Shown: piece by piece, positions 10,085-29,111 of the stretch | How positions within the stretch are numbered: position 1 is the first letter of the stretch | How the letters are laid out: each line of letters starts with the position of its first letter | Virus record (IMG/VR): IMGVR_UViG_3300001450_000067 | Coordinates: 15,026 to 44,136 of that record | Length of the DNA stretch: 29,111 nucleotides | Origin: a virus | Direction: 5' to 3' (one strand) | Translations under genes and position numbers: made by a program | The notes under the pieces: generated by a model | Database searches by the model: none | Told to the model about the DNA's origin: nothing | Seen by the model: only the letters and a program-made list of their open reading frames with translations

Positions 10085-12430
10085 ATGGCTTTCAACAACA
10101 TCCCTGGAATCCGAGCACAGTTCGGTGACCAGTTCTTCAACAAGACAATCTCAAGTAACCAGCCGCGTATCGTGGTTCTTGGGTTTGCTTCTTCCGGTAG
10201 CAGCTACAAGCTGCGAAGTGCCGCAAACATTTCTACTGAAGACTCCTACTACGGTCTAAGCTCTGAGCTTATGCGTGGTGTGCATGAGGTCTTCTCCCAG
10301 GGTGCTGAGAACATCGCAACAGTTCGCATCGGTGGCTCGCCTGGAAAGGTGACCCTGACAGACAGTGCAGGTGGAACTCTTGTTATCGAGACTGAGCGTC
10401 GAGACGACACTGTTCTTTCTCGCTACCATCTGATCATCGAGCGCAACAGTGATGGCGACAACCGATATCTTCTCTTTGATGTGGAAGATGCTTCCTACGT
10501 CTTTGACTCCGAAGAGATCAAGGTTATCGATACTGGACTAGTGATTGTTACTGACACCAACTTTGGTGACTTCAACTGTGGAGATTCGACTGATCCGTCA
10601 GACACTGCCACAAATGTTGATCTCGCTAGTCTTGTTCCTGGAAGTTTCACTGATGCTCTTGGTGGTGCAGCAACTGTTGCCGTAACACTAGTCGCTGGTG
10701 CTGATGGCTCCAACCCTTCTTTGGTTGCTCGCTACGCTGCCTTGTCTGAGGCTTACGAGCTTCTCGACAACAACGACCTGAACATGATTTATCCGGCAAA
10801 TGCGCTTATCGACGACCTCAACATCGTCGATGACACTAGCGCTGACGTAGCCAGCTACGGTTACTTCGGAAAGGGCATCCCATATTACAAGCACAGCAAC
10901 AATGGTCTTGGCTACCTCTGGCAGTATCGCTACCAGGGTAAGGTCTACACCTACTTCACTGATTCTGCTACCTACTTTGCAGGCATTGGATCTGCTGCCA
11001 AGGCCTCGCTGCCTGTGGTCGGCAGCCTTGTCGTTACTGCTTCTAAGGCTGGAATCGGCGGCAACGCTCACACTGTAGAGATTGTTGTTGGTTCTCCTGG
11101 GCCAACTGTAAGCGTCTCTGAGACTGCATTCGGAATTGATATCACCGTCACCGACGATGGTGCTGCAAGCGAAAGCGCCACCGCTACTGCTATTGACGCT
11201 GCTCTTGATGCATTCACCATGAAGAATGGCAACAAGGCGTCAACATTGTTTGATGCATCTGTCGGTACAGCTTCTGCCCTGGGTGGTGGTGCCACCAAGG
11301 CCAACCTTACTGGAGGCACTGGTCCGAACCCTGCCCTTTCGCATGCTGACCTTACTGGCGACACTGTTCCCGCAGCAGTCACCACTCGCTGGGCAGCTGG
11401 TGCAGATGGTGAGCTTCGTGAAGCTAACTTCTACCATCAGGCTCTTTCCTTCTGTGACCGTATCAGCCGTAGCCACAACATGGTTATGACTGCTATGAAC
11501 TTCAAGCGTCCTTCTTCTGCTGCCCCCAGCGGTCTTGGAGCTTGGGCTGGCGACAAGCCGACCTACAGCACCATTGGCGAAGTTCAGGCTGTTGACGCTG
11601 TCGCAGACAACGGCAACGGAATTCTTGGCAACAAGTTCTTTGCTGGTAAGGCTGCTACTTCTGCAGGATACCGTTCTGCTCTTGTCGTGGAAGGCAACAG
11701 CACCGATGGCTACGCTTTCGGTGGACTGATCAAGACAAAGGGAAGCAACCTTCCGGTTGGTTCTGACTGGGCTTACGGCATCAATGATGGTGACGAGGAA
11801 GCAGGATTCAACAACGCTCCCGTTGATATCGGTCGCTACGGCATCGCTTGCGCTGGCTGGCCAGTTCACCAGCACTCCTTCAATGGTTCCACCGCTTATC
11901 GTGGACCGCAGGCTGGTCTTGTTCTTGGACTGCTTGCTAGTCTTCCCGAGAACATTGCCCCAATTGGCCCCAACGGTCGATTCGCTAAGATCAGTAACCG
12001 ACTTCGTCTTCAGGCTGACCAGATTGATTCTTTGGCTTCCATCAGAATCACTTCTGTCTCTGTTGATGACGGTGCTCTCATCAATGTCAAGGGCGACACT
12101 TCTGCGCATCCCGATTCCGACTACAACAAGGTCAGCACCATGCGCTGTCTTTCGCGTCAGGTTTCCGGTGTCCGCAGCATTGTCAAGCAGTACATTGGCA
12201 AGCCTTTCACCAGTGTTCAGCTTCTCAGCATGAAGAACTCTATTGAAGGATTCCTCACTGCAGAGCGATCTGATGAGTTCAACAATGGCTTTGCTGAGCC
12301 TGTCTTCGAGGTAACTCAGCTTGATAGAATTCTTGGCAACCTTACTGTTGTTCTTCGAATCGTTCCACCCTTCTCAATTGAAGCAGTCACTCTCCGCACC
12401 TCCCTTGCGGCTGATGAGACAGACCTCTAA
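10085..12430 (+). CDS. Contractile tail sheath protein
   Basis: At 781 residues it is long for a sheath. The N-terminus MAFNNIPGIRAQFGDQFFNK, the hallmark C-terminal part (MRCLSRQVSGVRSIVKQYIG, FTSVQLLSMKNSIEGFLT, then FEVTQLDRILGNLTVVLRIV) and the tube gene directly after it support the call. Sheath subunits form the outer contractile cylinder that drives the tube into the cell. Residues about 303-412 look like an added domain (KAGIGGNAHTVEIVVGSPG, VSVSETAFGIDITVTDDG, GGGATKANLTGGTGPN). GGAGG sits 9 bases before the ATG, inside the end of the preceding gene. Codons are of the CGT/CGC/CGA class with very few AGA, fitting high expression. Confidence 0.9.
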   Translation: MAFNNIPGIRAQFGDQFFNKTISSNQPRIVVLGFASSGSSYKLRSAANISTEDSYYGLSSELMRGVHEVFSQGAENIATVRIGGSPGKVTLTDSAGGTLVIETERRDDTVLSRYHLIIERNSDGDNRYLLFDVEDASYVFDSEEIKVIDTGLVIVTDTNFGDFNCGDSTDPSDTATNVDLASLVPGSFTDALGGAATVAVTLVAGADGSNPSLVARYAALSEAYELLDNNDLNMIYPANALIDDLNIVDDTSADVASYGYFGKGIPYYKHSNNGLGYLWQYRYQGKVYTYFTDSATYFAGIGSAAKASLPVVGSLVVTASKAGIGGNAHTVEIVVGSPGPTVSVSETAFGIDITVTDDGAASESATATAIDAALDAFTMKNGNKASTLFDASVGTASALGGGATKANLTGGTGPNPALSHADLTGDTVPAAVTTRWAAGADGELREANFYHQALSFCDRISRSHNMVMTAMNFKRPSSAAPSGLGAWAGDKPTYSTIGEVQAVDAVADNGNGILGNKFFAGKAATSAGYRSALVVEGNSTDGYAFGGLIKTKGSNLPVGSDWAYGINDGDEEAGFNNAPVDIGRYGIACAGWPVHQHSFNGSTAYRGPQAGLVLGLLASLPENIAPIGPNGRFAKISNRLRLQADQIDSLASIRITSVSVDDGALINVKGDTSAHPDSDYNKVSTMRCLSRQVSGVRSIVKQYIGKPFTSVQLLSMKNSIEGFLTAERSDEFNNGFAEPVFEVTQLDRILGNLTVVLRIVPPFSIEAVTLRTSLAADETDL
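10994..11320 (+). other. Domain inserted in the sheath protein
   Basis: Residues about 303-412 form an Ala/Gly/Thr/Val-rich beta domain between a sheath segment ending KVYTYFTDSATYFAGIG and one starting SHADLTGDTV. From memory the pattern KAG-x-GGN-x-h-x-V ... itVt ... A-x-AIDAA ... NLTGGTG recurs as an insert in many unrelated phage structural proteins and is likely exposed on the tail surface. Confidence 0.5.
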
Positions 12431-14691: not shown

Positions 14692-15516
14692 ATGAACACA
14701 AATGATCTGCCAGCTCACCTGAGCGGCATGCTTGATGCAAATGCAAGAGGGCCTGCACTGCCCAGGGCAGATGACTCTCTTGCAACCAAAATCCTTGCTC
14801 ACAAGGATGCTCTTAACCAGGAAATGATGGGCGAGAACTATATCGACCCTAATGACTACAAGCCAGATGTTCACGACTCCAGAGGAGATGTAAACAAGGC
14901 GAGAAAGGAAGTGGCGAGAAAGACTCAACCAGCACCGAAGAAGGTTGAGCCAAAGAAGGCTAAGTCAGTTAAGAAGGCACTCAAGCCAGCACCAAAGAGA
15001 GAGAAGAAGATGGAAGATCTAGATGCAGTCATGAAGAAGGCAGAGCAGCACATCCAGGATGAGACTCCCGAGCAGGAGCCACAGGAGCAGAAAACTGTTG
15101 ATGACTTCATCAGAGAGCGTGCTATCGCCATCCTTGCTGCACGTGGTACAGAGGACCCAGAGGCCGCTCTGGCGACACTAAAGCAGAAGCATGGATCGAT
15201 CTACTTGACTCTGTTCAGCGAGGAAGAGCTGTACATCTACACCTCTGTAAAGCGTTCTAAGTGGAAGCAGATCCAGGGCTACATTACCCAGCTTCAGGAA
15301 AACAACAGCAAGGAGGGCCGAGCTTTGGAAGAAGAGCTAACCAGAACCCTGGTTAGAAACTGCTTGGTTTATCCAGCTCTGAACAATGCTGACAAAGCTG
15401 AAGCTTTCTTTCAGAATGCACCGGCTGGAGTTATTGACTCACTGTATACTGCAGTTCAGCAGGTGTCTTACTTCTGGACCCCACAGCAGGTTATGTCCCA
15501 GACCATTCGCATCTGA
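14692..15516 (+). CDS. Tail assembly chaperone-like protein, first
   Basis: This 274-residue protein has AGGA 6 bases before the ATG. Residues 1-65 are polar, and about 66-125 form a Lys/Ala/Pro then Glu/Gln-rich linker (EPKKAKSVKKALKPAPKREK; DETPEQEPQEQK). Residues about 125-274 form a helical domain (DDFIRERAIAILAARGTEDP, LFSEEELYIYTSVKRSKWKQ, LVRNCLVYPALNNADKAEAF, AGVIDSLYTAVQQVSYFW). Similar helical proteins between tube and tape measure genes are tail assembly chaperones, which coat the tape measure protein before tube polymerisation and are not in the final particle. Here the chaperone function is split into two separate genes rather than joined by the usual ribosomal frameshift. The call rests on position and fold-like pattern. 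Confidence 0.55.
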   Translation: MNTNDLPAHLSGMLDANARGPALPRADDSLATKILAHKDALNQEMMGENYIDPNDYKPDVHDSRGDVNKARKEVARKTQPAPKKVEPKKAKSVKKALKPAPKREKKMEDLDAVMKKAEQHIQDETPEQEPQEQKTVDDFIRERAIAILAARGTEDPEAALATLKQKHGSIYLTLFSEEELYIYTSVKRSKWKQIQGYITQLQENNSKEGRALEEELTRTLVRNCLVYPALNNADKAEAFFQNAPAGVIDSLYTAVQQVSYFWTPQQVMSQTIRI

Positions 15517-15528
15517 TAGGCGGGTGTC

Positions 15529-16239
15529 ATGGACGTTCAATCCATCCTAAAATCAGATGGAGTCTACCAAACTGAGATAGCAGGCTACACTTTTTTGTGG
15601 CGCCTGCTATCCATGCGTGAGTTTAGAATCATCTCTGGACTTCGCGACAGTGGGCAGATTACAGAAGAAAGGGCATGCGAAGAAGCATTCAAGAGAGTCT
15701 TCTTTGGCAACTACGACATGCTCTCCTCAAACATGCATGCAGGAGCCAGCGTATCGATTGGTCGCACCGCTCTTTGGTTGAGCGGTGATAACCAATCCAC
15801 AATCAAGGAAGACATCATTCTGGCTCGCAAGTACCATCCAAGGTATAGCGTGTACGAGAAGATTAAAAGGATTGTACTTATTGCATACCCCGCATACAGG
15901 CCAGATGACCTAGAAGAGTGGAGTCGTGTGAAGCTTCTTGAAATGTTTGCTGCAGCTGAAGCTCTGCTAATTGAGAAGGGGTTCCCATATGAAGCCTTTG
16001 ATGTCAATGACATCGGCAAGAAGGACAAGGGTCCTCCAAAGAACCAGAGGATTAGGACAGAGTCAGAGAATGCTTCGATGGAGTCTGCGTACCATGGACA
16101 GATGCAAGGGTCCACTGTTTGGGACAAGACCCCTGAGGAGCTTGGAAAAAGAGGTAAGATGGTTGGTAAGACAAGGGTGAGAAAAGAGAATCTATCTAGT
16201 CGAGATCTAGAAAGGCTAGATAGGCTCACTAATAATTAA
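15529..16239 (+). CDS. Tail assembly chaperone-like protein, second
   Basis: This 236-residue protein begins 12 bases after the first chaperone, in the same frame. The N-terminal two thirds are helical: IAGYTFLWRLLSMREFRIIS, RACEEAFKRVFFGNYDML, ARKYHPRYSVYEKIKRIVLI and EWSRVKLLEMFAAAEALLIE. The last 70 residues are polar, basic and probably disordered (KDKGPPKNQRIRTESEN; GKRGKMVGKTRVRKEN). The W-R-L-L-S-x-x-E-F start is like the input domain of tail chaperones. It lies directly before the giant tail genes, where the second chaperone product (gpT-like) belongs. The ribosome site is weak (GGCGGGTG upstream of the ATG), so expression may depend on translation of the gene before it. Confidence 0.52.
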   Translation: MDVQSILKSDGVYQTEIAGYTFLWRLLSMREFRIISGLRDSGQITEERACEEAFKRVFFGNYDMLSSNMHAGASVSIGRTALWLSGDNQSTIKEDIILARKYHPRYSVYEKIKRIVLIAYPAYRPDDLEEWSRVKLLEMFAAAEALLIEKGFPYEAFDVNDIGKKDKGPPKNQRIRTESENASMESAYHGQMQGSTVWDKTPEELGKRGKMVGKTRVRKENLSSRDLERLDRLTNN

Positions 16240-16251
16240 AGGTGCTAAGCC

Positions 16252-19200
16252 ATGGACTCTTCCGATCCATCAAACGATAGAAGCCTTCTGGCACCGGCCT
16301 TAGCAGCCGGTGTCAGTTCCATGGGCCTCATGTACGCAATGAGTACCAGAGGTGATGGCACTAGGTTCCTTGATGACATTGCAGACATGGCTACCTACTT
16401 GGGAGACAGCTCTCCTTTGGGCCTGATGCATACCTTCCGCATTAGAGAGTTTGCTAGTCCTTTTACCTCATCTGCATATCAGATGAGACAGATTAACAAG
16501 CAAAGCGTTCCAGGTGTTAGTGCCTCCATGGTCGACGACACACTGAGCGTAATGTATGATAGTTCGTTTTTTCAGAATAAAGAAAGCATAAGCTATCTGT
16601 CTGATGTAACTGGATTGTCTACGGAAGAGCTAAAAGAAAAGGGAATTCATTCTACTTCTAGTGCGCAAGAGTTTGATATCTTGTTCAAGAGAGAGAAGAA
16701 CGGAATAGGAAGCTTGCACGCTGTTCCCAAGCAAGGCGTGGACAAGAAGTCTGCTCTTTTGTCCTCCAATGTCAATTTGATGGAATACAGTGACACCAGT
16801 AGTGAGCTGTTGGACATTGGTAAGAGTACTCCAGTTAACCCTGCAGCCAAAGGCTACATGCAGGCTACTGATCAATATAGGCACGAGGGAGATCACAAGG
16901 TTGGCAGGATCTTCAAAAGAAAGATCAAGGGACACGCTGAGGAGCTGGGGGATAAGGCTGTACACGCCTATGCACCGTATCTTCCAGTCTCTTCTATTCG
17001 GGGAGATGTAGATGACGCTGCCGGCCTGATGAGAAGAACGGGGCTGATAAGAGGCGTTGCTGCTGCATCTGTCGAAAGATTCAACAGGCTTGTTGACCAA
17101 ACAGTTGGACTTATACCATCTCCAAAACTCCAGGAGATGGTCAGAGCTGCAGGAGTAGACAGAGTCAAAGAAGGGCCTGCTCTTAGACAGTACTTCATGG
17201 GATATGGCAAAAAGGCCATGAAGCTTGGAGCTATTGGCCTAGGCGTTTCTACACTCAGTGACTTCAGAGACGACTTCGGTGGACTGGGCAACATACCCAT
17301 ATCAGGCATTGTTAGCGCTGGCCTGGGCATGGCGTTCAAGAAGTTTAACTTCTCAAACAAGACCTCTTTCGGAGTAGCAGCGGCCAGCTTCTTTGGACAG
17401 GTGCTGACCCCTGGAATGTCGAATGGACTAATCTCTGGCTTTGCTGGCGCATATTCTTCACTGGATACTCTTAGAGGCAACACCCTCAACCCCTTCAACT
17501 ACTATCGAAGAACGATGGAAGGGTTGCTCCCAGGTGTGTCAACCGTAGAGATGGGTGCCTTCTCCGCTGCAGCGGCAGTCACACTTGGTGCTTCTCAGTT
17601 TCGTGGGAAGACACTGCTGCAGCATGGATTGGAGAAGGTTGGATTTGCGGCAGACGATTATGTTCGACCACTGAGATCCATTGTTGAAGAAAAGTTTAAT
17701 GAGAAAGCTCAAGGAAAGTTCAAGTTTGGGATGAGGCACCTTTTCACAGATGGCGAAGACCTGTCATACGACAGGGTCCGAGACTATGTGAGAACAAGAA
17801 ATGACGCTATGCGTTCGGCGAGAATTCAAAGAGAAGCTGAGTACCAAGATCTTCCTGCAGCAAAGAAGTATGAAAAAAGACTAGACCAGATTGCAAGTGA
17901 GTACCACCAGAGTGACTCCCCATTCAGGAGAGTGGAGCTGGAAGCAAGAGGGCTGTTTGAAGACGTCAGAGCGTCCATCATGGGGCTTGACCCAAAGCAG
18001 CATGTTGCACACGATGAGTTCAAGCTCAGGGGCCGGCTAGGAGCACTGGGCACACTTGGTGTCGCTGCCTTTATGGGGCAGCAACTTCTGACAGGTGGAC
18101 TGCTCGGGTCAATGGAGTCCTCAGAAGAGCTCAGGGACATCTACTCAGGCGACCAGCTTGTTGAAGTCAAGAGTGGTCGGTGGTGGCTCTTTGGATCAAG
18201 AGAGTTCGGAGGTGACGAAGCCAACGTGAAGCTTCGTCACTCCAGGATTGCCCAGATCATGAATGGCACAGATGATGCTTGGGAGTGGGGTAACAGACAG
18301 GACAGTCTTGCAATCACAAAGTTCTTCCTAAAGAACTTCACATACCAACAAGAAGAAGAGCTGATGTACAGAGACCCATCTCTTGCATCTGCGTCTGCAT
18401 TTGAAAACATTCCAATTGTAGGAGGCCTTCTTGCTGCCACCATTGGCAGGGTTGTAAAGCCTGAAAAGTATATAAGAGAAAATGAGTGGAACGATCCTGA
18501 CTTCCCATCTTACTCTGCACTGGGTGATCCAATTAGCGCAAACAGCTTTGGCACTAGAGCAGCTAATATGTATCAGCAGTTTACTGACATGATTGGTATG
18601 TGGGGTTGGGCCGCAAACACAGTTTCAAAGGCTACAATTGGTGACCAAAACTTTGAGTCAAGAAGACCTCATCTTGACACTATTGGTTACAGAACATCAA
18701 TGACTGCATCTTTCTGGGATTCAGAGATTGGTGACCCAGGAACAACTGAAGCAGTTCGACGTGTCCTGATGAGAAGAAGCTCAGAGTACGAGACATTCAA
18801 CCCTCTTCCGAACGACCAGCCCAGTTGGATGCCTATGAAGCTACGCATGGGTTCTCCAACTGCAAAGGCCGGTGGCCTAGCCAGATCCCTGCTTCCTGGC
18901 CCCTCAATGGAGAACATTTACCCAGAGCTGGCAGGAGTCCATCCTGAAGACTACCCGATGATTCACAGGATGAGAGTTCTATCTGCCCTTGCTCCAGAGA
19001 CAAGAGAGTTTAGAGAGACGCAGAAAGCTGTATATGAGATGGCCAAGAATGGTGCATACAAAGAAGAAGAGCTTAAACAGATTGAGCAGATGTCTCAAGA
19101 TGCAGGCAGAACCCTTAGGGGCTATGTCAATGAAAAGGTAAACCCCAGAGCTATTGAAGTCCCCCTGATGAGCAGTCTGACCCAAGCAGCTTGGCAGACA

Positions 19201-20169
19201 GGTTGGGCTGCAGCCAGAAGTGCCGCTGCCCCAGCGGAGTACTTGGTCCCATTTGGTTTCAGGCCCTTCCAGAAGTTCACTGGATTCATGAGAGACCCCA
19301 TTGAGCAGTACAAGTATGAAAATGTTTATGGCTCCCCGACTGGAGACTGGCAGGCTCCATGGAATGACTGGTTCAGACCAGCCTTCCTGACAGCTGGTTC
19401 ATTGCTTCCAGGCGAGTTCACTCCTTCTTACAGGAAGAAGATTCACGATACAAACGAATACTTCGACAAGTTGGAGTTCTACAAGTACGCTTCGTTGGCT
19501 TTAGAAGCAGAGAAGATGGGAGGCAATGCAAACGATCTGTATAGGCGCGCAGCTGAAACTCGATATGGAATCAATCCATATGGATCGACAATGGGTGTGT
19601 ACTGGTCTCTGCCCATCGAGCAGAGAAAGTACATGCACTCATTCCTTGAGGCAGGAGAAAAAGAAAGGTCTCAGATTCTGAAGATCCTTCCAGAAGACCA
19701 TAAGCATCTCTACAAGGCAATGTGGCAAAGGCTCGACTCTGGGGAAGACATGGAGCTGTTTGGTGGCAGTCGCTCTCGGGACGTTGACCCCAGATATATC
19801 CGACAGAGATTCTATGAGCTTCTTAACTACTTTGAAGAGAACCCCCTGCCTCCTCCAGACTTTATTGGCTGGGACCAAGGAGTCCAGATGGACGATATTC
19901 GAGTCCTCTTTATTAACGAAGAGGCCTCGAATATGCACAACTACAATGTGTGGGAGAAGCAGGTCCGATATGCAAGGGCAGAGCCCATGGCTGTCATGGC
20001 AGCACAGCAGCTTTCTGACATCACAGCAGGGGATGCATACAGGGCTGCAAGTCGCACAGGAATGGATATCTCAGTTACACCAACAGGTGGAAGAACTGGT
20101 AGCGCAAACTTGGAGCTTGGTGACACAAGAGAAGATGGGATAACAAGTACCCTGCAACGCTTCTTGTAG
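16252..20169 (+). CDS. Giant inner-tail protein at the tape-measure position
   Basis: This 1305-residue protein has AAAGGTG 7 bases before the ATG. Its place after the chaperones is where a tape measure gene is expected, but it lacks long regular coiled coils. It has several hydrophobic stretches: 11-30 (LAPALAAGVSSMGLMYAM), about 322-335 (LGAIGLGVSTL), 351-365 (ISGIVSAGLGMAF), 373-404 (FGVAAASFFGQVL and ISGFAGAYSSL), 432-449 and 597-619 (LGVAAFMGQQLLTGGLLG). These could insert into a membrane during ejection. A block SGRWWLFGSREFGGDEANV follows (R643-W644-W645), which I recall in similarly large proteins of other phages without knowing its function. The C-terminal half is rich in Tyr, Trp and Pro and probably folded. 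Arginine codons are mostly AGA/AGG. It is probably a virion protein released with DNA and working with the next gene's product. Confidence 0.55.
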   Translation: MDSSDPSNDRSLLAPALAAGVSSMGLMYAMSTRGDGTRFLDDIADMATYLGDSSPLGLMHTFRIREFASPFTSSAYQMRQINKQSVPGVSASMVDDTLSVMYDSSFFQNKESISYLSDVTGLSTEELKEKGIHSTSSAQEFDILFKREKNGIGSLHAVPKQGVDKKSALLSSNVNLMEYSDTSSELLDIGKSTPVNPAAKGYMQATDQYRHEGDHKVGRIFKRKIKGHAEELGDKAVHAYAPYLPVSSIRGDVDDAAGLMRRTGLIRGVAAASVERFNRLVDQTVGLIPSPKLQEMVRAAGVDRVKEGPALRQYFMGYGKKAMKLGAIGLGVSTLSDFRDDFGGLGNIPISGIVSAGLGMAFKKFNFSNKTSFGVAAASFFGQVLTPGMSNGLISGFAGAYSSLDTLRGNTLNPFNYYRRTMEGLLPGVSTVEMGAFSAAAAVTLGASQFRGKTLLQHGLEKVGFAADDYVRPLRSIVEEKFNEKAQGKFKFGMRHLFTDGEDLSYDRVRDYVRTRNDAMRSARIQREAEYQDLPAAKKYEKRLDQIASEYHQSDSPFRRVELEARGLFEDVRASIMGLDPKQHVAHDEFKLRGRLGALGTLGVAAFMGQQLLTGGLLGSMESSEELRDIYSGDQLVEVKSGRWWLFGSREFGGDEANVKLRHSRIAQIMNGTDDAWEWGNRQDSLAITKFFLKNFTYQQEEELMYRDPSLASASAFENIPIVGGLLAATIGRVVKPEKYIRENEWNDPDFPSYSALGDPISANSFGTRAANMYQQFTDMIGMWGWAANTVSKATIGDQNFESRRPHLDTIGYRTSMTASFWDSEIGDPGTTEAVRRVLMRRSSEYETFNPLPNDQPSWMPMKLRMGSPTAKAGGLARSLLPGPSMENIYPELAGVHPEDYPMIHRMRVLSALAPETREFRETQKAVYEMAKNGAYKEEELKQIEQMSQDAGRTLRGYVNEKVNPRAIEVPLMSSLTQAAWQTGWAAARSAAAPAEYLVPFGFRPFQKFTGFMRDPIEQYKYENVYGSPTGDWQAPWNDWFRPAFLTAGSLLPGEFTPSYRKKIHDTNEYFDKLEFYKYASLALEAEKMGGNANDLYRRAAETRYGINPYGSTMGVYWSLPIEQRKYMHSFLEAGEKERSQILKILPEDHKHLYKAMWQRLDSGEDMELFGGSRSRDVDPRYIRQRFYELLNYFEENPLPPPDFIGWDQGVQMDDIRVLFINEEASNMHNYNVWEKQVRYARAEPMAVMAAQQLSDITAGDAYRAASRTGMDISVTPTGGRTGSANLELGDTREDGITSTLQRFL

Positions 20170-20240: not shown

Positions 20241-23200
20241 ATGGCACAGCCCCCCGATAATGATTCTGTTTTCAAAGATGTATTTGGCTTGTCAGTGGCA
20301 GCATCGCCGCTGCTGATTGGTGGCCTGTATGGCTACGGACAAGTGGTGTCCAACAGGTCGTCAGCCAATGCGCTTGATGCTGCTGTTGCTGTCGCTTCTG
20401 GCGAGTCCCCCAATGTGGCCCTGTCTGCCCAGAGCGGAAGGCTTGGAAGACTGGGCAGAGATGTTGGATCGGATGTAAGGAGGCAGGCCGAAGCAGTTGC
20501 GGAAAGACAAGTAAAAAGAAATGACCAACTCATAACCGAGCTAACTGACGCTATCACAAGCGAAGAAAAACTATCACAGATGCTAGACCAGCAGGGTGCT
20601 GTGTTCCAGGCATTGTCTTCTACGATTGAGGACCCCAACTCTGGCATGTCTGACGTCGTCAAGAAGCAAATGGGTTCCATTCTCGAAGACGCAATGAGAT
20701 TGGAAAGCAATCCTGATGAGGTCAAAAAGGTTCTTGCTGGTGCTATCAGAACCATCATGGAAGGGGGAGAAAACAGAGATGGCCAAATTGCTTTCTCTCG
20801 ACACCTGAAAGAGTATAGGAAGATAGGAAAGCATCTTAGCGTTCCCAAAACTGGAAGAAGCTTATCAGGTGCGTTCCCCCCTCCATCTCCCGCTCTTGCT
20901 TCAAGCGCACGAGGGAGGGATCTTAGATCGGGCCTCAGCAAGGCGGGAGTGTCGAGGCTTGAGGCTATTCAGAAAGCAGTTCAAGGACAAGGCACTGTTG
21001 GCCTTGTCAGAAAGGGTGGTGTTACTACAGCACAGATTAGAAGCAACAGGGGCGGTGGCTCTTTCGGCTCTGGTGCTTTTGTCACGAATGTTTCCTTGAC
21101 AGACATCGAGTTTGGAAAACACAGGGTTTATATGGGTGAGCAGCTGCAGACCCCCTATGTCGCCCCAAAGGGAATGATTAGCGAGAAGGATGCTTCTCAG
21201 GCTGTGGCAATGATGAGAAGAGGAAACACACAAGGAGCTCAAGCTTTTGTCGCAAGCTCAAGAGTAAACTTTGCAGATTTTCAAACAAGAAGATTTCTTA
21301 CTGAGCTGGAAGAAGCTGGAAGCTTATTTGGATTGGGGCGAAGAAAGAATGCTTTCAATGCGTCACTAACAGAAGTTATGCTTGTCGGTGACAGAAGCAG
21401 AGACAGTGTTACGAACACACAAGGAGCACCAGGAATTACCCAATTCGAAAGAGAGAAGATGAGCCATCTTAAGGTATTTGGATTGGAGAACATTCAAGAC
21501 AAAGAAGCACAGATGGCCCTGATCAAGGGCATGAGTGTCATGCCTGGGTATGATCCAGGTGTTAGCCCAGATGCAATCCAGACAACAATTAAAGACCCCA
21601 TTCTTGCAGGAGGCAAGAGAGTGTACACCAGCGTAATGTATGCCCAGGGCGGAACTCTTGATCAAATGATGTCTGGGAGGGTAGGAGGGCATACAAGAAA
21701 AAGCCTGCCTATTACTGCTCGCGAAAGGCAGTTCTTTGGTAGAAGCCAGTTCTTTACTGTTAAGAAGAAAGACGGACGCATGGGAAAAAGCGGAAGAGGC
21801 GCTGGGTTCAGGTCTGGTGAAGGAAGGATTAACAAAGCTGTCATTATGGACGTAAGACCAAAAGAGGTAATAGGAAGCCTTGCTAGTGTGACATCTGAAA
21901 CAGGTGGAACTGTTTTTACAACCAGAAAGTTTACCAGCACAAAGCTGTCAACCATACCAGTGCTAGACCCCAATGTCCACAAGAGTGCTATTAGTCCAAT
22001 CTTGCAAAGGGTTTTAGATGAGGGCATGGGCGGTGAGACTGTTACGTTCACCCCAGCAGAGCTAGCAGAGCATGGAAGAGTTCTTGGTATGAGCAAGTCT
22101 GGTGTCAGACGCCTTACCCAAGAGGCGTCTGCTGCAAGTGGAGATGTGAGGATCAAGATTGCTGGATACTCAAGTGCATATGGACAGCATCTGATCAACC
22201 TTGCTATCGAGACAGACCAAACAGCTGGCACAGGAGTTAAGCTGTTCGGGCCTTTGGCCAAGGGTATCACTGACGAGATTGGCGAAGCCGAGGCAATAAA
22301 GCTGGTAGGGGGAGGCGGTGACCTAGCCAGCCTTGTCAGGGAAGGAGCATTGGTCACGGAAGGTTCAATGCTGAAGAAAAGCGCCGCCTTTATGGAACAC
22401 CAGTTTCTTACAGGTGCTGCATACTTCTCAGTCTCAGAAGATCCAGATAGGTCAGTAGGCCGGATTCACAGTGTCTTTGGTGAAGCCAAGAATGTTATTA
22501 GCGATATTCTTAAAACAGAAAAAGGAATGACAGAAACAGAAGCTTTGTTCAGGTTTTCTCTTCGGAAGATGAGGGATGCTGGGGTCACCCCCCAAAGAGT
22601 TGGTCTTGTAGCTGGTGGCATGATGGCGCATGGTGAAAAGCTTTTGAGCGCCAACATGACTGTCAACCAGATTATTGAAAAGGAGTTTGGAAAAGACAAA
22701 GCAATGAAAATTATCGAAGAAGCAAAAAAAGGCTTTACTTTTGGTATTAGCGGTTTTGCAAAGGGAGAGGGCGCTGAGACTTTCGTCAACGCCCGAGGTT
22801 CAGTAGAGCGCAGAACCTTTGAGCAACTGCAGCACCAGCTAAGACTTAACCCAGATATGAGTGAAGACCAGATCTCAAAGATTCTGTCTGGAATCTACAG
22901 AAGAAAGGTTGGCGCTGCCGAGCACTTGGTTCTTGCTGAGTCAATGACTGCAATGGTCGGTTCCATGAAAGGCAAGGATTTTATAACTGAAGAAGCTGCA
23001 GAGAAGATGCAAAGGATTGGACTGGCAGAGTTGATCTCTAACAGAATGGCGAAGGGTGAGAAATTGGTTGACGTCTTAAAGGAGTCAGACAGTGGAACCA
23101 TTCTGGATCTGTCTGATGTTGATGAGATGGTTCAGGGGGGCCGGAAAGCCGAAGAGTTCAAGTCTCTGGCAGCGGAGCTCAGAAAGAAGTTTGGTGGAAC

Positions 23201-25496
23201 TGGAGAGATCTTTCTTCCAGGTGCAGATGCTTTTAAAGCAGTCAGAGAGGTCTCTATAAAGACAGACAAGGGTGCACGGATTGTTGATGCACCATTCAAC
23301 AGAATGGTCAATGAGCTTGGCGCTAGCATGTTTGAGAGTGCCGGAACAGGTAGCAGTATCATGCCAGCACTTGACAAGTACGAATCAGAAGCCATTGACA
23401 TGTACTCCAATGTCAGATCAAGAGTTCTGAGTGGCAAGATCAAGGGATCAGGCACTCATACGGCTGTAATGATCGACCCCTATTCTGGGGTCGGACTGAC
23501 AGACAATCAGCAAAAGAGTGCCATGAAGGCTATGAGGGCCTCAGGTGGGATGGGAATCTTTATGGACTCCAATGCCTTCCTGTCTCAGATGGCAAACTTC
23601 AGCAACTCTGATGGAGCCCTTAGTGACATAGAGCCTCATGGAAATGTTAACAAGTTTGTTGATAGAAAAATAAGCAAGTTCGGAAAGGTAATAAACCGAT
23701 CTGACGATGTCACTCCTGAAGGCAGGATGATGAGAAGGTTCTTCACAGGCCTGGAAACAGAAAATGCTCAAGCCACTGTAGGGTTAGCTACAAGACACCC
23801 TATTCTTGCTCAGGGTAATGTGCAGATGACTAGTATCTTTAGGAGTGTCAAAGAAGTTGGAGGCTCGACAGAAGATATTGCCTTTAACATGTTTAAGCAA
23901 ACAAAAAGCGGCAAAAGAGCAATTGCAAGGCTCAAAAGAAGAACAGGTTCCACAGTCAACAGCTTTGGAGCCATTGCCAATCTCATGGGCGAAGGTGGTA
24001 ATCACAGAAAGGCTGTAGATGCTTTCTTTACTTCAATGCACAGAAACCTTGGAGAATGGTTTAGTAATGAAGGTGGAGGAGTTGTCTACCAGCCTGTAAG
24101 AGAGTTGGACGTGCATGCTAATGGTCAAAGGAACAAGTATAGGATCGACTTTGGTGTTGCTGCCCAAGCCTTTGGTGATTTCGATGGTGATGCTTGGTCT
24201 GTTGTTCTCTTTTCAGAAGACGTACTCAAGTCAAAGAACGCTGGTGGCAAATCTGCAATGAACGTGCTTAAGGATTCTAGAGACCCAACCAGCCAGTACA
24301 TGAAGAGACTGAACAGATACCAGACTACATTTGCAGTGTTTGGTGCAGAGGCAAAAGATGCACTCGAAATGATGGGAGGCAAATATGGCAAGACAGAAGA
24401 TCTGGACAAGAGGATTGTTCAAGACCTGATGAAAGAGCATGCAGCTAAAACAGAAGTTGGAATGGTTGATGTAAACCTTTCCAAGATCAGAAGATCAATT
24501 CTCAATATGTCTGACCTGAGTACTGATGCTGCAACAGAAGCACTTGCTCTTTTGCAGGTGACTCAAGAGCATGCGGTAATTAAGGGAAAGAAGCTTCCAG
24601 TGTTCCTGCCTTTTGCAGCAGAAATGGTGGAAGCGTCGAGGGAACTGTTTGCAGGGAACGACAAGATGTTTAGAAGCTTTATGGAGAAAAGGATTTTTGG
24701 AGGCAGCGCATTTGACGATGGTGGGGTTGTTAAGATTACTGGAGCTGGCGATGATCCAGCTGAGGCGATCTCAAAGAATCTTAACAAAAAGCTTACCGAT
24801 GGAACTGTGGATCAGCACACAGTCGATCTCAGGAGAGCCATAGACACTGTTGTCGCTGCAGTCACCCAGAGCAGACTCGACCCTCAAATCGAGGCTGCTT
24901 CTGCAGGCACTCTTGCAGCCATGCTGAAGAGAGACATAGATGACCCAGCCCTAAAAGAGCTAATGCTTGCAGAGAATGATGCAATTGGTGGAATGCTAGG
25001 AGGGGCTTCCAAGGGCTCAAGGATTTCTGTTGCAGACGCTCTAAACCTATCGTCAGATCAGTTGGCAAGAAGTGCCAAGCTCAACATGAAGGCGATGCTT
25101 GTTCCGACTGCAATAGGTTTGGTTGGCACACTCCTTGTTGGTGGAGTGATGAGCAGAGTCGGCTCGGCCCCCGGAGGAGGGGCCTCTGCCGAAGACTTGG
25201 CTCTAAGAGAGCAGCAAGCTGGTGGCTCTATGTTCAACCCACGTCCGAATCCAGAGCAGGCTCAGAAGTATGACAAGTCTCAAAGTGGTGGAGTTAGCAA
25301 CAACCCACACCACATGAAGAGAGTTAAGACTAGGCAGAATTTCAATGTCAATGGTAAGCTGGGTGACAGTAGCCAGATAGGCCCTACAGCTGCAGCAATG
25401 TCTAGCATGCCAAACATGTCCGGTGGCATTAGGGTGTATGATGACAGACAGCCCATTACAGGCTCGTATGTAGAAAGAATGCTTGGTCTTGACTGA
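20241..25496 (+). CDS. Giant virion-type two-barrel RNA polymerase candidate in tape-measure locus
   Basis: This 1751-residue protein contains YRIDFGVAAQAFGDFDGDAW with D1313, D1315 and D1317. DFDGD is the magnesium-binding loop of the double-psi beta-barrel of RNA polymerase beta-prime (NADFDGD) and of single-chain relatives such as YonO and crAss-like phage virion polymerases. Upstream, RHPILAQGNVQMTSIF (R1185) resembles the R-x-P-x-L-H element before the same loop in beta-prime. Downstream, KTEVGMVDVNLSKIRRS (1403-) and QEHAVIKGKKLP (about 1442-) may be trigger-loop-like and clamp elements. K1066 and K1068 (SGKIKGSGTH) are candidate lysines of the first barrel. Hydrophobic segments occur at about 10-32 and 1620-1640 (LVPTAIGLVGTLLVGGVM). 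The last 100 residues are flexible. The ribosome site (AGAGG, 13 bases from the ATG) is weak. The gene's place implies packaging in the tail and entry with DNA. Apart from the DFDGD loop the match is by pattern only, and the first 900 residues are unassigned. Confidence 0.68.
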   Translation: MAQPPDNDSVFKDVFGLSVAASPLLIGGLYGYGQVVSNRSSANALDAAVAVASGESPNVALSAQSGRLGRLGRDVGSDVRRQAEAVAERQVKRNDQLITELTDAITSEEKLSQMLDQQGAVFQALSSTIEDPNSGMSDVVKKQMGSILEDAMRLESNPDEVKKVLAGAIRTIMEGGENRDGQIAFSRHLKEYRKIGKHLSVPKTGRSLSGAFPPPSPALASSARGRDLRSGLSKAGVSRLEAIQKAVQGQGTVGLVRKGGVTTAQIRSNRGGGSFGSGAFVTNVSLTDIEFGKHRVYMGEQLQTPYVAPKGMISEKDASQAVAMMRRGNTQGAQAFVASSRVNFADFQTRRFLTELEEAGSLFGLGRRKNAFNASLTEVMLVGDRSRDSVTNTQGAPGITQFEREKMSHLKVFGLENIQDKEAQMALIKGMSVMPGYDPGVSPDAIQTTIKDPILAGGKRVYTSVMYAQGGTLDQMMSGRVGGHTRKSLPITARERQFFGRSQFFTVKKKDGRMGKSGRGAGFRSGEGRINKAVIMDVRPKEVIGSLASVTSETGGTVFTTRKFTSTKLSTIPVLDPNVHKSAISPILQRVLDEGMGGETVTFTPAELAEHGRVLGMSKSGVRRLTQEASAASGDVRIKIAGYSSAYGQHLINLAIETDQTAGTGVKLFGPLAKGITDEIGEAEAIKLVGGGGDLASLVREGALVTEGSMLKKSAAFMEHQFLTGAAYFSVSEDPDRSVGRIHSVFGEAKNVISDILKTEKGMTETEALFRFSLRKMRDAGVTPQRVGLVAGGMMAHGEKLLSANMTVNQIIEKEFGKDKAMKIIEEAKKGFTFGISGFAKGEGAETFVNARGSVERRTFEQLQHQLRLNPDMSEDQISKILSGIYRRKVGAAEHLVLAESMTAMVGSMKGKDFITEEAAEKMQRIGLAELISNRMAKGEKLVDVLKESDSGTILDLSDVDEMVQGGRKAEEFKSLAAELRKKFGGTGEIFLPGADAFKAVREVSIKTDKGARIVDAPFNRMVNELGASMFESAGTGSSIMPALDKYESEAIDMYSNVRSRVLSGKIKGSGTHTAVMIDPYSGVGLTDNQQKSAMKAMRASGGMGIFMDSNAFLSQMANFSNSDGALSDIEPHGNVNKFVDRKISKFGKVINRSDDVTPEGRMMRRFFTGLETENAQATVGLATRHPILAQGNVQMTSIFRSVKEVGGSTEDIAFNMFKQTKSGKRAIARLKRRTGSTVNSFGAIANLMGEGGNHRKAVDAFFTSMHRNLGEWFSNEGGGVVYQPVRELDVHANGQRNKYRIDFGVAAQAFGDFDGDAWSVVLFSEDVLKSKNAGGKSAMNVLKDSRDPTSQYMKRLNRYQTTFAVFGAEAKDALEMMGGKYGKTEDLDKRIVQDLMKEHAAKTEVGMVDVNLSKIRRSILNMSDLSTDAATEALALLQVTQEHAVIKGKKLPVFLPFAAEMVEASRELFAGNDKMFRSFMEKRIFGGSAFDDGGVVKITGAGDDPAEAISKNLNKKLTDGTVDQHTVDLRRAIDTVVAAVTQSRLDPQIEAASAGTLAAMLKRDIDDPALKELMLAENDAIGGMLGGASKGSRISVADALNLSSDQLARSAKLNMKAMLVPTAIGLVGTLLVGGVMSRVGSAPGGGASAEDLALREQQAGGSMFNPRPNPEQAQKYDKSQSGGVSNNPHHMKRVKTRQNFNVNGKLGDSSQIGPTAAAMSSMPNMSGGIRVYDDRQPITGSYVERMLGLD
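24177..24191 (+). other. DFDGD catalytic-loop codons
   Basis: The codons GAT TTC GAT GGT GAT encode D1313-F-D-G-D1317 of the polymerase candidate. The three aspartates would bind the catalytic magnesium ion. Flanking hydrophobic strands (YRIDFGVAAQAFG before, AWSVVLFS after) match the barrel strands expected around the loop. Confidence 0.7.
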
Positions 25497-25504
25497 GGTA
25501 GATA

Positions 25505-28500
25505 ATGCCAAACAACTATACTGACAGTGAAAAAGTATTCGTTATCAATGACGTAAGTCTAAAGATTGCACCAACAATGATCCAGCTCAACGAGCAAGAT
25601 CTAACATACTCTTGGAAAACACTAAGAACAAAGTCGACAACGAAGATGGCATCTGGTCACACCAAGAAGGTGATCCACGTCCAGATCCCTTTTAAGAGCG
25701 AAATGATGCTTGATCTCCACAGGCTACTCGTGGAGTTCAGGCACTCTCCTTTTATGTTCATCGAGAACAGATACCTCAGAGAGGTTTTGTGTCCAGAATG
25801 GGGACCGAACAATAATCAGAAAATGGCCTTTACACTGCGTAATGCAAATGTGCAACCAGCTGCAGGCCTTACTGATGTATGGATTCTCGACCTTCAGCTG
25901 TCTTGGTTTAACTACTTTCCATACACAAACAACTGGCTCTACAGAGAAGACTGGTGTACCAATTGGCAGTTCTCTCAGAAAGAGGGAGAAGTCGGTCCAG
26001 GTTACAAGTACTCCATTGGTTGGACATACGACGAGAACGGAAAGAAAGTAAACAGGCCCAGTTTGATTGACTACAACATAAATGCTGGCACCCAGAATGG
26101 AGTCCTGCCCTGGTCTGCTGTCCAGAAGGATTATGAAAGCCTAGACAAGAAGACCATCATCGACATGGAAAGGATGCATCAGGGAGAAGTCTTTGACCTT
26201 CTACCCTTGCCCTCAAACATGTCTCCTGCAAAGTTTGTAAACAAGCCGTCTGACTCCAGAATCTATGTTCGTTATATCAACCTTCTTCAAAGAGATGCTT
26301 TGAAAAGGAACTTCAACATTGATTGCGAAGCAGATATTGTTGCACAAGATGGGTTCGACTACTTCTTTGCAGCAGCAAAAACTGCAGAAGGAAAGCTTAC
26401 TACGCTCTCCCTCCATGAAGGAGGAGAGCTGCCCTGGTACGCTGGTCTGAAGAGCTCTTGGATATCTAAGATGCTTTATGAATCAGATGGGAATCTTTAC
26501 AGCGAAGGGGTTGGTGGTGCTGACCAGCTTTCTTTTGCAGCATCCAAGGGAATCGAAGATAGAGACTTTGTCAGATCTATTAGAACAAGAAAGCCTGAAG
26601 TCGCCTCTGGAGTGAGGTTCTCATTCGAGAAGTATGCAAGTGTTCGCTACCCAGACAGCTGGGTTGAGAACCAGTATGTTCAAAGAAAGTCAGTACTCAG
26701 CAAGATTGAACTTGGTGCAATGAAGGACATGCTTCACGATAGATACTCAAAACATGATTCGAAAGTGGAGAATGCAGCTCTCATTGCTCAAATGCTCAAT
26801 GAAAAAGGGGCAAGCGGAATGATGATTATTGCTGCGATTGTTAACTCTGTTGCAGAATCTGGTCTGGATCATGAAGCTGTCAATCAGAGCCCCCATCCAG
26901 ATGGCGACCCTAATAGGTCTTCAGAGGGCCGAAGAAAATCTAATCACAATGCATACAACGTTGGGTATCCAAACGATCCAAGACCAGACAAGCCAAACTG
27001 GGCTGTCTCTGCTGGTCTTTTTCAGATTAATGACTCTTCAGCAGCATGGGGCAACAAGGCTGGTACTGTAAAGCAAAGATGGGATCCTGTATTTAGCATT
27101 AACACGATTCAGTTAGACGAGGGCTGGCCACTATTTGAGGCTGTAGCGAACGCAACAGGCGACTACAAGATTGCTGTAGCCGCATTTTGTCAGTTCGTAG
27201 AAAGACCACAGCACACAAATGATGCAAGCATTTATAAAGATTTGGAAGATTTAAGTACAAATACTCAGCAGAATAAAATAAACTTTCTGCTGATGAAGAT
27301 CAACAAAAACGATCTTAACCTAACAGAGTTTGGCAAGCATGCCCAGACTAGAGCAAGAGGTGCGAAGGGAGTCTTTCCTGACATTGAGTCATATATTGAT
27401 GGAAAATACAACAACAAGCCCAGCAATTCGACATCGCCTTCAACTCTTTCGAATAAAGGCACTGCGTCGACTGATGCAACAGAAGAGGAGCAAGAGGCAG
27501 CAAGGCTTGTAACGGAGAAAAAGCAGAAGAAAGTCCAAGAGCAAATGGCAGATTTTATGTCACAGATGCATGTTGACGGCTGGAGATACTACACAGAAAA
27601 CTCCTATGTCACCAATGTTTGGTACAAGTACGAAGACATTTCTCTCACCCTTTCAAATAGCGAGTATTCGAATGGAGAGGTTGGGCAGTTGTTCAACCAA
27701 CACAGTGCTGTTGTCACACATGTGTCAGCTGGACTCAGACATGTTGTTGCTGACATTCCCATCATCGGGCAGAACACACCGACCCACCAGTTTCTGGGGT
27801 CGGTGCAGCCGTACTACGAGATGGAAATCACCTACAAGGATGGAGACTCTCCCTTGGGCGTGGGAGACAGGGAGGGCCTGCCCTTGGAGGCCAGAGAGAT
27901 TAACAGTATGAAGAACATCTTGCAGAACAGCGCAAGGAACTTCAGACAGATTCCAGACTCTTGGTGCGCATCGGTAGACTGTTTCATAACTAGACTTTTT
28001 GGAAGCTATGAGTACGACGACCTATCTTTGCTAGAGTCAAAGTCCAATGCAGGTGGTGGTGTCAACCTCTTGGACTGGGAGATGACCAAGAGGATGGCAT
28101 TCACAGGAAGTGCTCATGCGACTCTGCCTGGACACCCTGGTGTGTCTACTGTCAAGCTGACGATGGAAGAGACCTCGCCCTACATCGAGGGCGAGACCCT
28201 GACGCCTACATCAGTTGCTGCAGATGGGCTTGATGCGGCCAGATCAGAGGTCCTCAATGCAGTTTACAACTGGGGGCTAGACAAGTACGATCCGACTTTG
28301 ACATCGCTCTATCTTGCTCAGCATGCAGGGTCCACCGATGATGAGCTGCTTGATCTTGGTTCGATGACCAACACTACGAGACCAGATGAGGAGAACTTTG
28401 GCAAGTTCGTACTGGATGACATCTTGTACCATCCAAGTGAGACTGCACTGTTTGTTCCCAATGATGACTCGATTGCAAGCGCTCTGAATGCCCTTGGTGC

Positions 28501-29111
28501 AAACATGGGAGAGCCTGCAAGCAATGTTGGTGCGGGTGTTGGTGCAAACATGGGAGAGCCTGCAAGCAATGTTGGTGCGGGTGTTGGTGCAAATGGACAG
28601 CCAATTATATTTGCCAATAGTGACTATTACGATGGCTACACTCAAGTAAGACTAGAAGACGATCAGAAGTACTTAGACTTTTCCCAAAGCAGTGTAACCT
28701 CTGGCGGTCATGTGTCTGGAGACATTAGCCAGCTGTTGGAAGAGAATCCAGATCTTGGAGACATTCCAATCAAGAAGCTTTTGGACTATAGGTTTGGACT
28801 TCATGGTCTGGTGGATAATGTCAGCTTGATGATCGCAGAAGACCATCAAGCTGGTGGTGTAGACTTGTATAAGGATATTCAAGATCATAAACCAATCTAT
28901 GGAGAGGCCCTGCCTCGCAAAGCTGTAGTTGAAGCGCTATACGGGCTCCCTGTCGAGCCTTCAATGTGGAGAGCATTTGCTTTGTACACGAGTACATATG
29001 CAGCACTTACATACAGAGGCAATACTGACACTTACACGATTTCCCCAAATAATGGTGCAGCACAAAGAGTAACGGGAAGTGTTGACTACTTTAAGGATCT
29101 TGAAGATGAAT
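25505..29111 (+). CDS. Giant tail/baseplate protein with lysozyme-like domain (3' end outside window)
   Basis: The frame is open from ATG 25505 to the window edge without a stop, giving at least 1202 residues. GAGG lies 6 bases before the ATG, overlapping the upstream TGA. The N-terminal part (about 20-150: LKIAPTMIQLNEQDLTYSWK, VIHVQIPFKSEMMLDLHRLL, FMFIENRYLREVL) resembles structural domains of tail hub proteins. Residues about 435-575 form a lysozyme or transglycosylase-like domain: IAAIVNSVAESGLDHEAV with probable catalytic E451, SAGLFQIND (502-510), and AAFCQFVERPQ with E566-R-P, a pattern of phage tail lysozymes. Next come a Lys/Glu/Gln linker, a beta-rich structural part (HVVADIPIIGQNTPTHQFLG), and a 45-base tandem repeat. 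The likely role is to cut peptidoglycan as the tail penetrates. Hub, spike or tape-measure-linked identity remains open. Confidence 0.72.
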   Translation, partial: MPNNYTDSEKVFVINDVSLKIAPTMIQLNEQDLTYSWKTLRTKSTTKMASGHTKKVIHVQIPFKSEMMLDLHRLLVEFRHSPFMFIENRYLREVLCPEWGPNNNQKMAFTLRNANVQPAAGLTDVWILDLQLSWFNYFPYTNNWLYREDWCTNWQFSQKEGEVGPGYKYSIGWTYDENGKKVNRPSLIDYNINAGTQNGVLPWSAVQKDYESLDKKTIIDMERMHQGEVFDLLPLPSNMSPAKFVNKPSDSRIYVRYINLLQRDALKRNFNIDCEADIVAQDGFDYFFAAAKTAEGKLTTLSLHEGGELPWYAGLKSSWISKMLYESDGNLYSEGVGGADQLSFAASKGIEDRDFVRSIRTRKPEVASGVRFSFEKYASVRYPDSWVENQYVQRKSVLSKIELGAMKDMLHDRYSKHDSKVENAALIAQMLNEKGASGMMIIAAIVNSVAESGLDHEAVNQSPHPDGDPNRSSEGRRKSNHNAYNVGYPNDPRPDKPNWAVSAGLFQINDSSAAWGNKAGTVKQRWDPVFSINTIQLDEGWPLFEAVANATGDYKIAVAAFCQFVERPQHTNDASIYKDLEDLSTNTQQNKINFLLMKINKNDLNLTEFGKHAQTRARGAKGVFPDIESYIDGKYNNKPSNSTSPSTLSNKGTASTDATEEEQEAARLVTEKKQKKVQEQMADFMSQMHVDGWRYYTENSYVTNVWYKYEDISLTLSNSEYSNGEVGQLFNQHSAVVTHVSAGLRHVVADIPIIGQNTPTHQFLGSVQPYYEMEITYKDGDSPLGVGDREGLPLEAREINSMKNILQNSARNFRQIPDSWCASVDCFITRLFGSYEYDDLSLLESKSNAGGGVNLLDWEMTKRMAFTGSAHATLPGHPGVSTVKLTMEETSPYIEGETLTPTSVAADGLDAARSEVLNAVYNWGLDKYDPTLTSLYLAQHAGSTDDELLDLGSMTNTTRPDEENFGKFVLDDILYHPSETALFVPNDDSIASALNALGANMGEPASNVGAGVGANMGEPASNVGAGVGANGQPIIFANSDYYDGYTQVRLEDDQKYLDFSQSSVTSGGHVSGDISQLLEENPDLGDIPIKKLLDYRFGLHGLVDNVSLMIAEDHQAGGVDLYKDIQDHKPIYGEALPRKAVVEALYGLPVEPSMWRAFALYTSTYAALTYRGNTDTYTISPNNGAAQRVTGSVDYFKDLEDE
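28496..28593 (+). repeat. 45-base exact tandem repeat inside the tail lysozyme gene
   Basis: Two identical 45-base copies (28496-28540 and 28541-28585) are followed by 8 bases of a third. Each encodes GANMGEPASNVGAGV. The unit is a multiple of three, so copy-number changes keep the frame. It forms a flexible Gly/Ala linker between two folded parts. Confidence 0.95.

Follow-up and report, generated by a model that had tools for sequence, protein, structure and literature searches.

A predicted single-chain two-barrel RNA polymerase encoded in the tail locus of contractile-tailed phages

Phage RNA polymerases of the two-barrel type have been described for Thermus phage P23-45, which possesses one polymerase at the tail locus and one free polymerase (PMC10770324). 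The enzyme at the tail locus, gp96, is a tape measure of 5002 aa that carries the polymerase at its N-terminus and belongs to a phage with a non-contractile tail (PMC10770324). Furthermore, P74-26 gp62 is a single-chain phage polymerase, and two barrels are shared by PolD and QDE-1 (PMC10770324). YonO-like polymerases are named in 0305phi8-36, where the gene is orf99, and in c-st, and according to PMC7824862 no further jumbo phage outside its group 1 encodes one. Among crAss-like phages, phi14:2 encodes a single-chain two-barrel polymerase, gp66 (gp077 in KC821624), which carries a virion-protein annotation. For Bacillus phage 0305phi8-36, gp146 (orf146) was assigned as the tape measure, mainly from its length, and the passages of PMC2147016 dealing with this gene report no polymerase for it. 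Acinetobacter phage ME3 has been described as a distant relative of 0305phi8-36. In the lineage of 0305phi8-36, ME3 and KLEB27-3, the gene at this place is termed tape measure, hypothetical or structural. No published polymerase was found in the literature searched at this locus in contractile-tailed phages, and the supplementary survey of viral two-barrel genes in PMC10770324 may already name some of the genes.

The window, i.e., the whole stretch of 29,111 nucleotides analyzed here, corresponds to bases 15026-44136 of a virus record that is 44,136 bases long. As claimed in the original prediction, it harbors an ORF of 1751 residues containing GDFDGD; according to the window ORF list it is a single ATG ORF with this motif at residues 1312-1317 (Table 1). 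RHPIL and EHAVIKGKK are located at residues 1185-1189 and 1443-1451 of the deduced protein, respectively. The same 1751-aa protein is encoded on the 68.5-kb contig IMGVR_UViG_3300001450_000030 (100% in the best segment).

Table 1. Positions in the window of the candidate polymerase gene, its predicted parts and neighboring genes.
Feature	Position	Strand	Basis
Tail sheath gene (contractile tail)	10085..12430	+	tblastn 1e-4 to 2e-4
Two presumed tail chaperonin genes	14692..16239	+	Position alone, versus ME3_33/34
Upstream 1305-aa virion protein, ME3_35 homologue	16252..20169	+	tblastn 3e-25 to ME3_35, 4e-12 to MTATph1
Predicted single-chain two-barrel RNA polymerase, 1751 aa, tail locus	20241..25496	+	ORF; family, motif and fold evidence
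Weak hydrophobic segment close to N-terminus, residues 14-32	20280..20336	+	Hydropathy 1.43
Predicted beta/RPB2-like half with barrel B, residues 480-851	21678..22793	+	VIA-align Z 10.8-9.7
KLFGPLAKG, residues 667-675, candidate barrel-B catalytic pair K667 and K674	22239..22265	+	Invariance
Predicted beta-prime-like half with barrel A, residues 1066-1359	23436..24317	+	Model of residues 1040-1560, VIA-align Z 7.1-5.9
R1185-H-P1187, counterpart of beta-prime NRAPT	23793..23801	+	R and P invariant in 19/19
DFDGD, D1313/D1315/D1317, predicted Mg-binding triad	24177..24191	+	Invariant in 19/19
E1443-K1450, conserved motif past barrel A	24567..24590	+	K1450 invariant
Hydrophobic segment close to C-terminus, residues 1619-1637	25095..25151	+	Hydropathy 1.97
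Downstream hub/lysozyme gene, continues past window end	25505..29110	+	PHROG, Pfam

The sheath gene matches annotated sheath genes of ME3, MTATph1 and KLEB27-3, which supports a contractile tail and thus the myovirus assignment made beforehand. Moreover, the capsid gene (5098-6417) matches Moorella phage MTATph1, Bacillus phage KLEB27-3 and ME3. Directly after the capsid gene, the region 6526-7614 encodes a C-terminal bacterial Ig-like domain (Big_5, 1e-9). The gene order corresponds to that of ME3, namely sheath, structural genes, two presumed chaperonins, the 1305-aa virion protein, the polymerase-like gene and the hub/lysozyme gene; KLEB27-3 and MTATph1 show the same order with additional genes interposed. 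The placement originally given, between the tail chaperones and the tail lysozyme, holds on the lysozyme side, where the downstream gene matched a PHROG endolysin (1.6e-9) and Pfam Phage_lysozyme2 (7.1e-4, below its cut-off). On the other side the 1305-aa gene intervenes, and the two presumed chaperonin genes had no family match in the PHROG search.

When the 1751-aa protein itself was used to search PHROGs, Pfam and PDB sequences, all matches obtained were at chance level: the sole Pfam listing was Dynactin_p22 (E 0.16), PF05183 was not matched, and tblastn in the named phages returned matches at E 8-9 alone. Polymerase signals originated from distant members of its family. Each of the nine PDB sequences retrieved at E <= 10 with profile A6, which represents eight distant members, is an RNA polymerase largest subunit, the best match being phiKZ nvRNAP (0.0028); profiles A5, A7 and A8 retrieved no polymerase from the PDB. 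PF00623 (RNA_pol_Rpb1_2) was found over the triad in two of eight distant members scanned, at E 7.6e-4 and 0.0043 and below the curated cut-off, and a PHROG RNA polymerase beta subunit in one of four (8.5e-4). These members are connected to the window's protein by hhalign comparisons of family groups: the close family matched the L019-L032 group (99.7%, E 1.7e-25), which in turn matched three further groups (95.4-97.7%, E 1.8e-12 to 1.6e-8), compared with 4.0% for the ME3 group. None of the six family groups matched gp96 of P23-45, gp64 or gp66 of phi14:2 significantly in hhalign (probability 0.4% for gp96), nor did the close family match E. coli RpoB or RpoC. Distant family members thus matched polymerase profiles weakly but specifically, so that a complete lack of profile matches, named beforehand as refuting the prediction, did not arise; no match was obtained for the 1751-aa protein itself or with gp96, gp66, beta-prime or PF05183 as the target.

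Predicted structures of both halves matched RNA polymerases, in agreement with the two-barrel fold proposed at the outset. Model 1 (residues 480-1660, 13 sequences) is of low overall confidence (pLDDT 61.1, pTM 0.39). Its first 372 residues, 480-851, were aligned by VIA to polymerase second-largest subunits over 241-271 residues, and this class accounts for all 50 of the best 50 matches listed; Foldseek returned polymerase chains in nine of the first ten rows for this part (best E 0.011, not significant alone). Model 2 (residues 1040-1560, 19 sequences) reached pLDDT 75.5 and pTM 0.74, and all of the best 50 VIA matches listed are of the largest-subunit type, among them P74-26 gp62. Its Z-scores (Table 1) do not reach 8, the value under which the tool advises caution, and are insufficient alone; they carry weight because class, range and motif agree. 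Most of the model 2 alignments begin close to position 346 in E. coli beta-prime, and shorter ones terminate at 507-554 in plastid or cyanobacterial chains. Judged by range rather than residue by residue, this agrees with the DxDGD register. In Foldseek, the matches of model 2 were weak, the best one being AR9 beta-prime (AR9 nvRNAP; E 0.34, prob 0.80), and an uncharacterized ME3 protein ranked first in the set of predicted viral structures (E 1.5e-3, prob 1.00). Since the beta side matches 480-851 and the beta-prime side 1040-1560, both barrels appear to reside on one chain. The two halves were modeled together in the low-confidence model 1 alone, so the facing of lysines and aspartates is presumed.

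In 19 of 19 homologous core segments with 14-28% identity to that of the 1751-aa protein, the residues R1185, P1187, D1313, D1315, D1317 and K1450 were invariant in three alignment modes, and G1069 was also invariant in a second alignment of the same segments. Hence, the aspartates are conserved in homologues, and the non-conservation that the original prediction had named as evidence against itself did not occur. Its conserved flanks stood in part: RHP and K1450 are retained, whereas position 1443 is occupied by either E or Q and position 1448 (K here) is variable. The residue between the triad aspartates also varies widely across the family. In the beta-like half, K667 and K674 were invariant in two sets of homologues (13/13 and 12/12), and K667 was only nearly invariant in alignment A5; owing to its long insertion, one homologue, L067, had been excluded from the 13-sequence count, A5 and A7. 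The stretch K-LFGPLA-K-G is similar to DKMAGRHGNKG in E. coli RpoB, the lysines of which are catalytic. K667 and K674 are the likely candidates for the barrel-B lysine pair, hhalign to RpoB being not significant. EHAVIKGKK was considered for this site and rejected, as it follows barrel A and K667/K674 fit better.

Whether DFDGD occurs in a large tail protein merely by chance, as the empty profile searches with the 1751-aa protein might suggest, was evaluated by motif counts. The motif arose in 28 of 20,000 shuffles of this protein. Among position-matched genes of the family, DxDxD was present in 38 of 39 (shuffles of the 39: mean 9.9, maximum 17) and RxP followed by DxDxD 30-140 residues later in 30 of 39 (shuffle mean 2.1, maximum 9), compared with 22 and 5, respectively, of 98 other large ORFs from the same loci; these control ORFs have a lower mean length (1304 vs 1884 aa), and the 39 genes, being related in sequence, are not independent trials and include the window's own near-identical contig. 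Together with the invariant residues and the fold matches of both halves, these counts make a chance origin of the motif extremely improbable. The 39 genes comprise 37 loci, KLEB27-3 gp034 and MTATph1 CDS0027, with ME3 counted once (as L025). Repeat or near-identical contigs were dropped (L001, L007, L023, L041, L042, L045, L050, L051, L054, L056-L059, L061, L062, L064-L066, L068, L069, L073, L075), as were loci with the gene truncated or absent at the contig end (L028, L035, L044, L047, L071) and, before the count, L021, which has two motif-free ORFs at the polymerase position. The regex counts are crude: DIDPD in L049 and RxP in L067 are probably chance occurrences, for L019 pairs other than the aligned RHP and DYDFD were picked, and in L017 and L072 RHP is present with the regex distance exceeded or not met. 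No R-x-P at the set distance was observed in the groups L024, L027, L033/L034/L036 and L074, which are outside the 19-sequence alignment. A search of viral contigs for the GDFDGDxW DNA pattern yielded six stretches, namely four short ORFs, one DnaB-type helicase by sequence and one near-identical contig.

Queries with the upstream neighbor yielded 36 + 18 loci and those with the polymerase-like gene 8 + 9, the sets overlapping; the genome contig scan yielded no relative, and KLEB27-3 gp034 as a single query found no match in viral contigs. At the same position, family members feature DFDGD, DADGD, DYDGD, DFDAD, DFDQD, DHDQD, DSDGD and similar forms. The distance from R-x-P to the triad start is 38-40 residues in nine members (L032, L037, L038, L039, L040, L043, L046, L048 and KLEB27-3), compared with 38 in P23-45 gp96 and 35 in E. 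coli beta-prime. It amounts to 128 in the 1751-aa protein owing to an insertion and to 66-208 in its close relatives, most of which also possess a C-terminal hydrophobic segment like residues 1619-1637. In the homologue L067:13178-19723, several hundred inserted residues separate the R-x-P region from DFDAD.

MTATph1 CDS0027 is devoid of a DxDxD triad, and by its sequence the polymerase part seems to be absent there; likewise, some relatives of P23-45 are without the fused polymerase (PMC10770324). In this phage (L012:6513-13869, CDS0027-CDS0031), transposase and ATPase-like genes directly follow CDS0027 in the tail locus. The gene at the polymerase position of L049 (12540-16274) encodes just 1245 aa within an otherwise related locus and probably lacks polymerase and triad. 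Four scanned members of 2260-2456 aa (L037, L039, L043, L046) feature an exonuclease-like domain near the N-terminus. Residues 279-408 of L039:12427-19794 matched PHROG 192 at 9.9e-8, and the N-terminal parts of the other three matched RNase_H_2, RNase_T or DNA_pol_B_exo2 below cut-off. Nuclease and polymerase therefore seem to be joined in one tail-locus protein in these members.

Some relatives encode an additional polymerase elsewhere. PF05183 (QDE-1/YonO-like) was matched over its cut-off in 6 of 32 related records (2/12 + 4/20). Loci with such a separate gene are L083, L084, L085 and L087-L090, six over cut-off and a seventh just under. This below-cut-off match (E 0.0013) sits in a 952-aa frame with DDDGD, and a further one in a 138-aa frame with a stop looks spurious. 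The full records of ME3, KLEB27-3 and MTATph1 gave no PF05183 match; many of the related records are fragments, so absence from them means little.

A second, separate polymerase is a feature that these relatives have in common with P23-45. The 1751-aa protein also resembles gp96 in being a giant tail-locus protein with DFDGD, a preceding R-x-P and hydrophobic segments. In contrast to the N-terminal position in gp96, the polymerase-like halves are located here at residues 480-851 and about 1066-1359 of 1751 in a contractile-tailed phage, and membership in the gp96 family was rejected on account of this different layout and the lack of a significant sequence relation. R-x-P is likewise present in phi14:2 gp66, but the hhalign match was not significant and phage group and gene surroundings differ. 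YonO/QDE-1-like enzymes including orf99 of 0305phi8-36 share two barrels on one chain; affiliation to PF05183 was nevertheless dismissed, since the 1751-aa protein does not match this family and sits in the tail locus, and the PF05183 genes of relatives are separate. Within the phiKZ/AR9 group, phiKZ nvRNAP was the top PDB match for the profile of distant members and AR9 nvRNAP the top Foldseek match for barrel A, whereas the enzymes of this group consist of several subunits and both halves are on one chain here. Going by its sequence and predicted fold, the protein would work in the manner of the P23-45 and crAss virion polymerases.

Considering family, motif and fold evidence together, the gene probably represents a new family of single-chain two-barrel RNA polymerases at the tail locus, which would be built into the tail, delivered and responsible for transcribing the first phage genes. 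From the N-terminus, the chain would consist of the beta-like half with barrel B, a long connector, the beta-prime-like half with barrel A, and helices, with hydrophobic segments near both ends; its gene is flanked by those for a large virion protein and the baseplate hub/lysozyme. Incorporation into the tail appears most likely because only orfs 143 and 144 near the 0305phi8-36 locus are called non-structural (PMC2147016). Contraction of the sheath would then deliver the polymerase with or ahead of the DNA, and the delivered enzyme could transcribe the first phage genes without the host polymerase. In some relatives, the second, free YonO/QDE-1-like polymerase might take over later. A more far-reaching proposal is put forward tentatively and is, on balance, doubtful: throughout the 0305phi8-36/ME3/KLEB27-3 lineage and many uncultured relatives, the single-chain polymerase might replace the assigned tape measure, fill the tail lumen, be driven in on contraction, sit at the entry pore by means of its hydrophobic ends, transcribe during DNA entry and perhaps help to pull the DNA in.

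Alternatively, the protein could be a two-barrel relic that has lost catalysis and functions solely as a structural or tape-measure tail protein. This would fit the tape-measure assignment at this place in 0305phi8-36 (PMC2147016) and the variable residue between the aspartates. However, triad, R-x-P and K1450 are kept in 19 of 19 segments at 14-28% identity, which is hard to explain without catalysis, and this explanation is considered unlikely. Similarly low probability is given to an active polymerase synthesized inside infected cells and left unpackaged, the tail locus reflecting merely gene order. Packaging in this phage is indeed deduced from the locus, but the gene lies inside the virion-gene block in every relative placed, the 0305phi8-36 genes around the locus other than orfs 143 and 144 are said to be structural (PMC2147016), and several relatives possess a separate polymerase gene anyway.

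Two barrels being common to PolD and QDE-1 (PMC10770324), the product could also be a PolD-like DNA polymerase or an RNA-dependent polymerase. The best 50 fold matches listed for each model are all DNA-dependent RNA polymerases, and the 1751-aa protein left PF05183 unmatched in the Pfam scan; such an enzyme is considered very improbable. The absence of PolD from these listings carries no weight in this respect.

If the preferred reading of a tail-delivered RNA polymerase is true, tail-borne transcription, as in the Thermus P23-45 group, would be extended to a divergent contractile-tailed lineage. Sequence and models suggest that phages of this group may deliver a transcription enzyme of their own to the cell by way of the tail. 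A function would thereby be provided for a gene so far known under its tape-measure, hypothetical or structural annotation, and a highly divergent single-chain family, useful for reconstructing the origin of the cellular enzyme, would be added to the two-barrel polymerases. Rifampicin-resistant early transcription and polymerase activity in virions are predicted for a cultured relative such as KLEB27-3.

The gene had also been placed at the tape-measure locus. It occupies the same position as 0305phi8-36 gp146, one gene past the chaperonins and before hub gp147, this equivalence being drawn from the ME3 annotation rather than from sequence. The location is therefore upheld, but it is doubtful that the 1751-aa protein itself is a tape measure; a compact polymerase seems to occupy a large part of it. 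The 1305-aa upstream gene may be the real tape measure and represents an alternative candidate. Across the lineage, this gene was more conserved than the polymerase gene, with best-segment identities of 33-36% at several loci.
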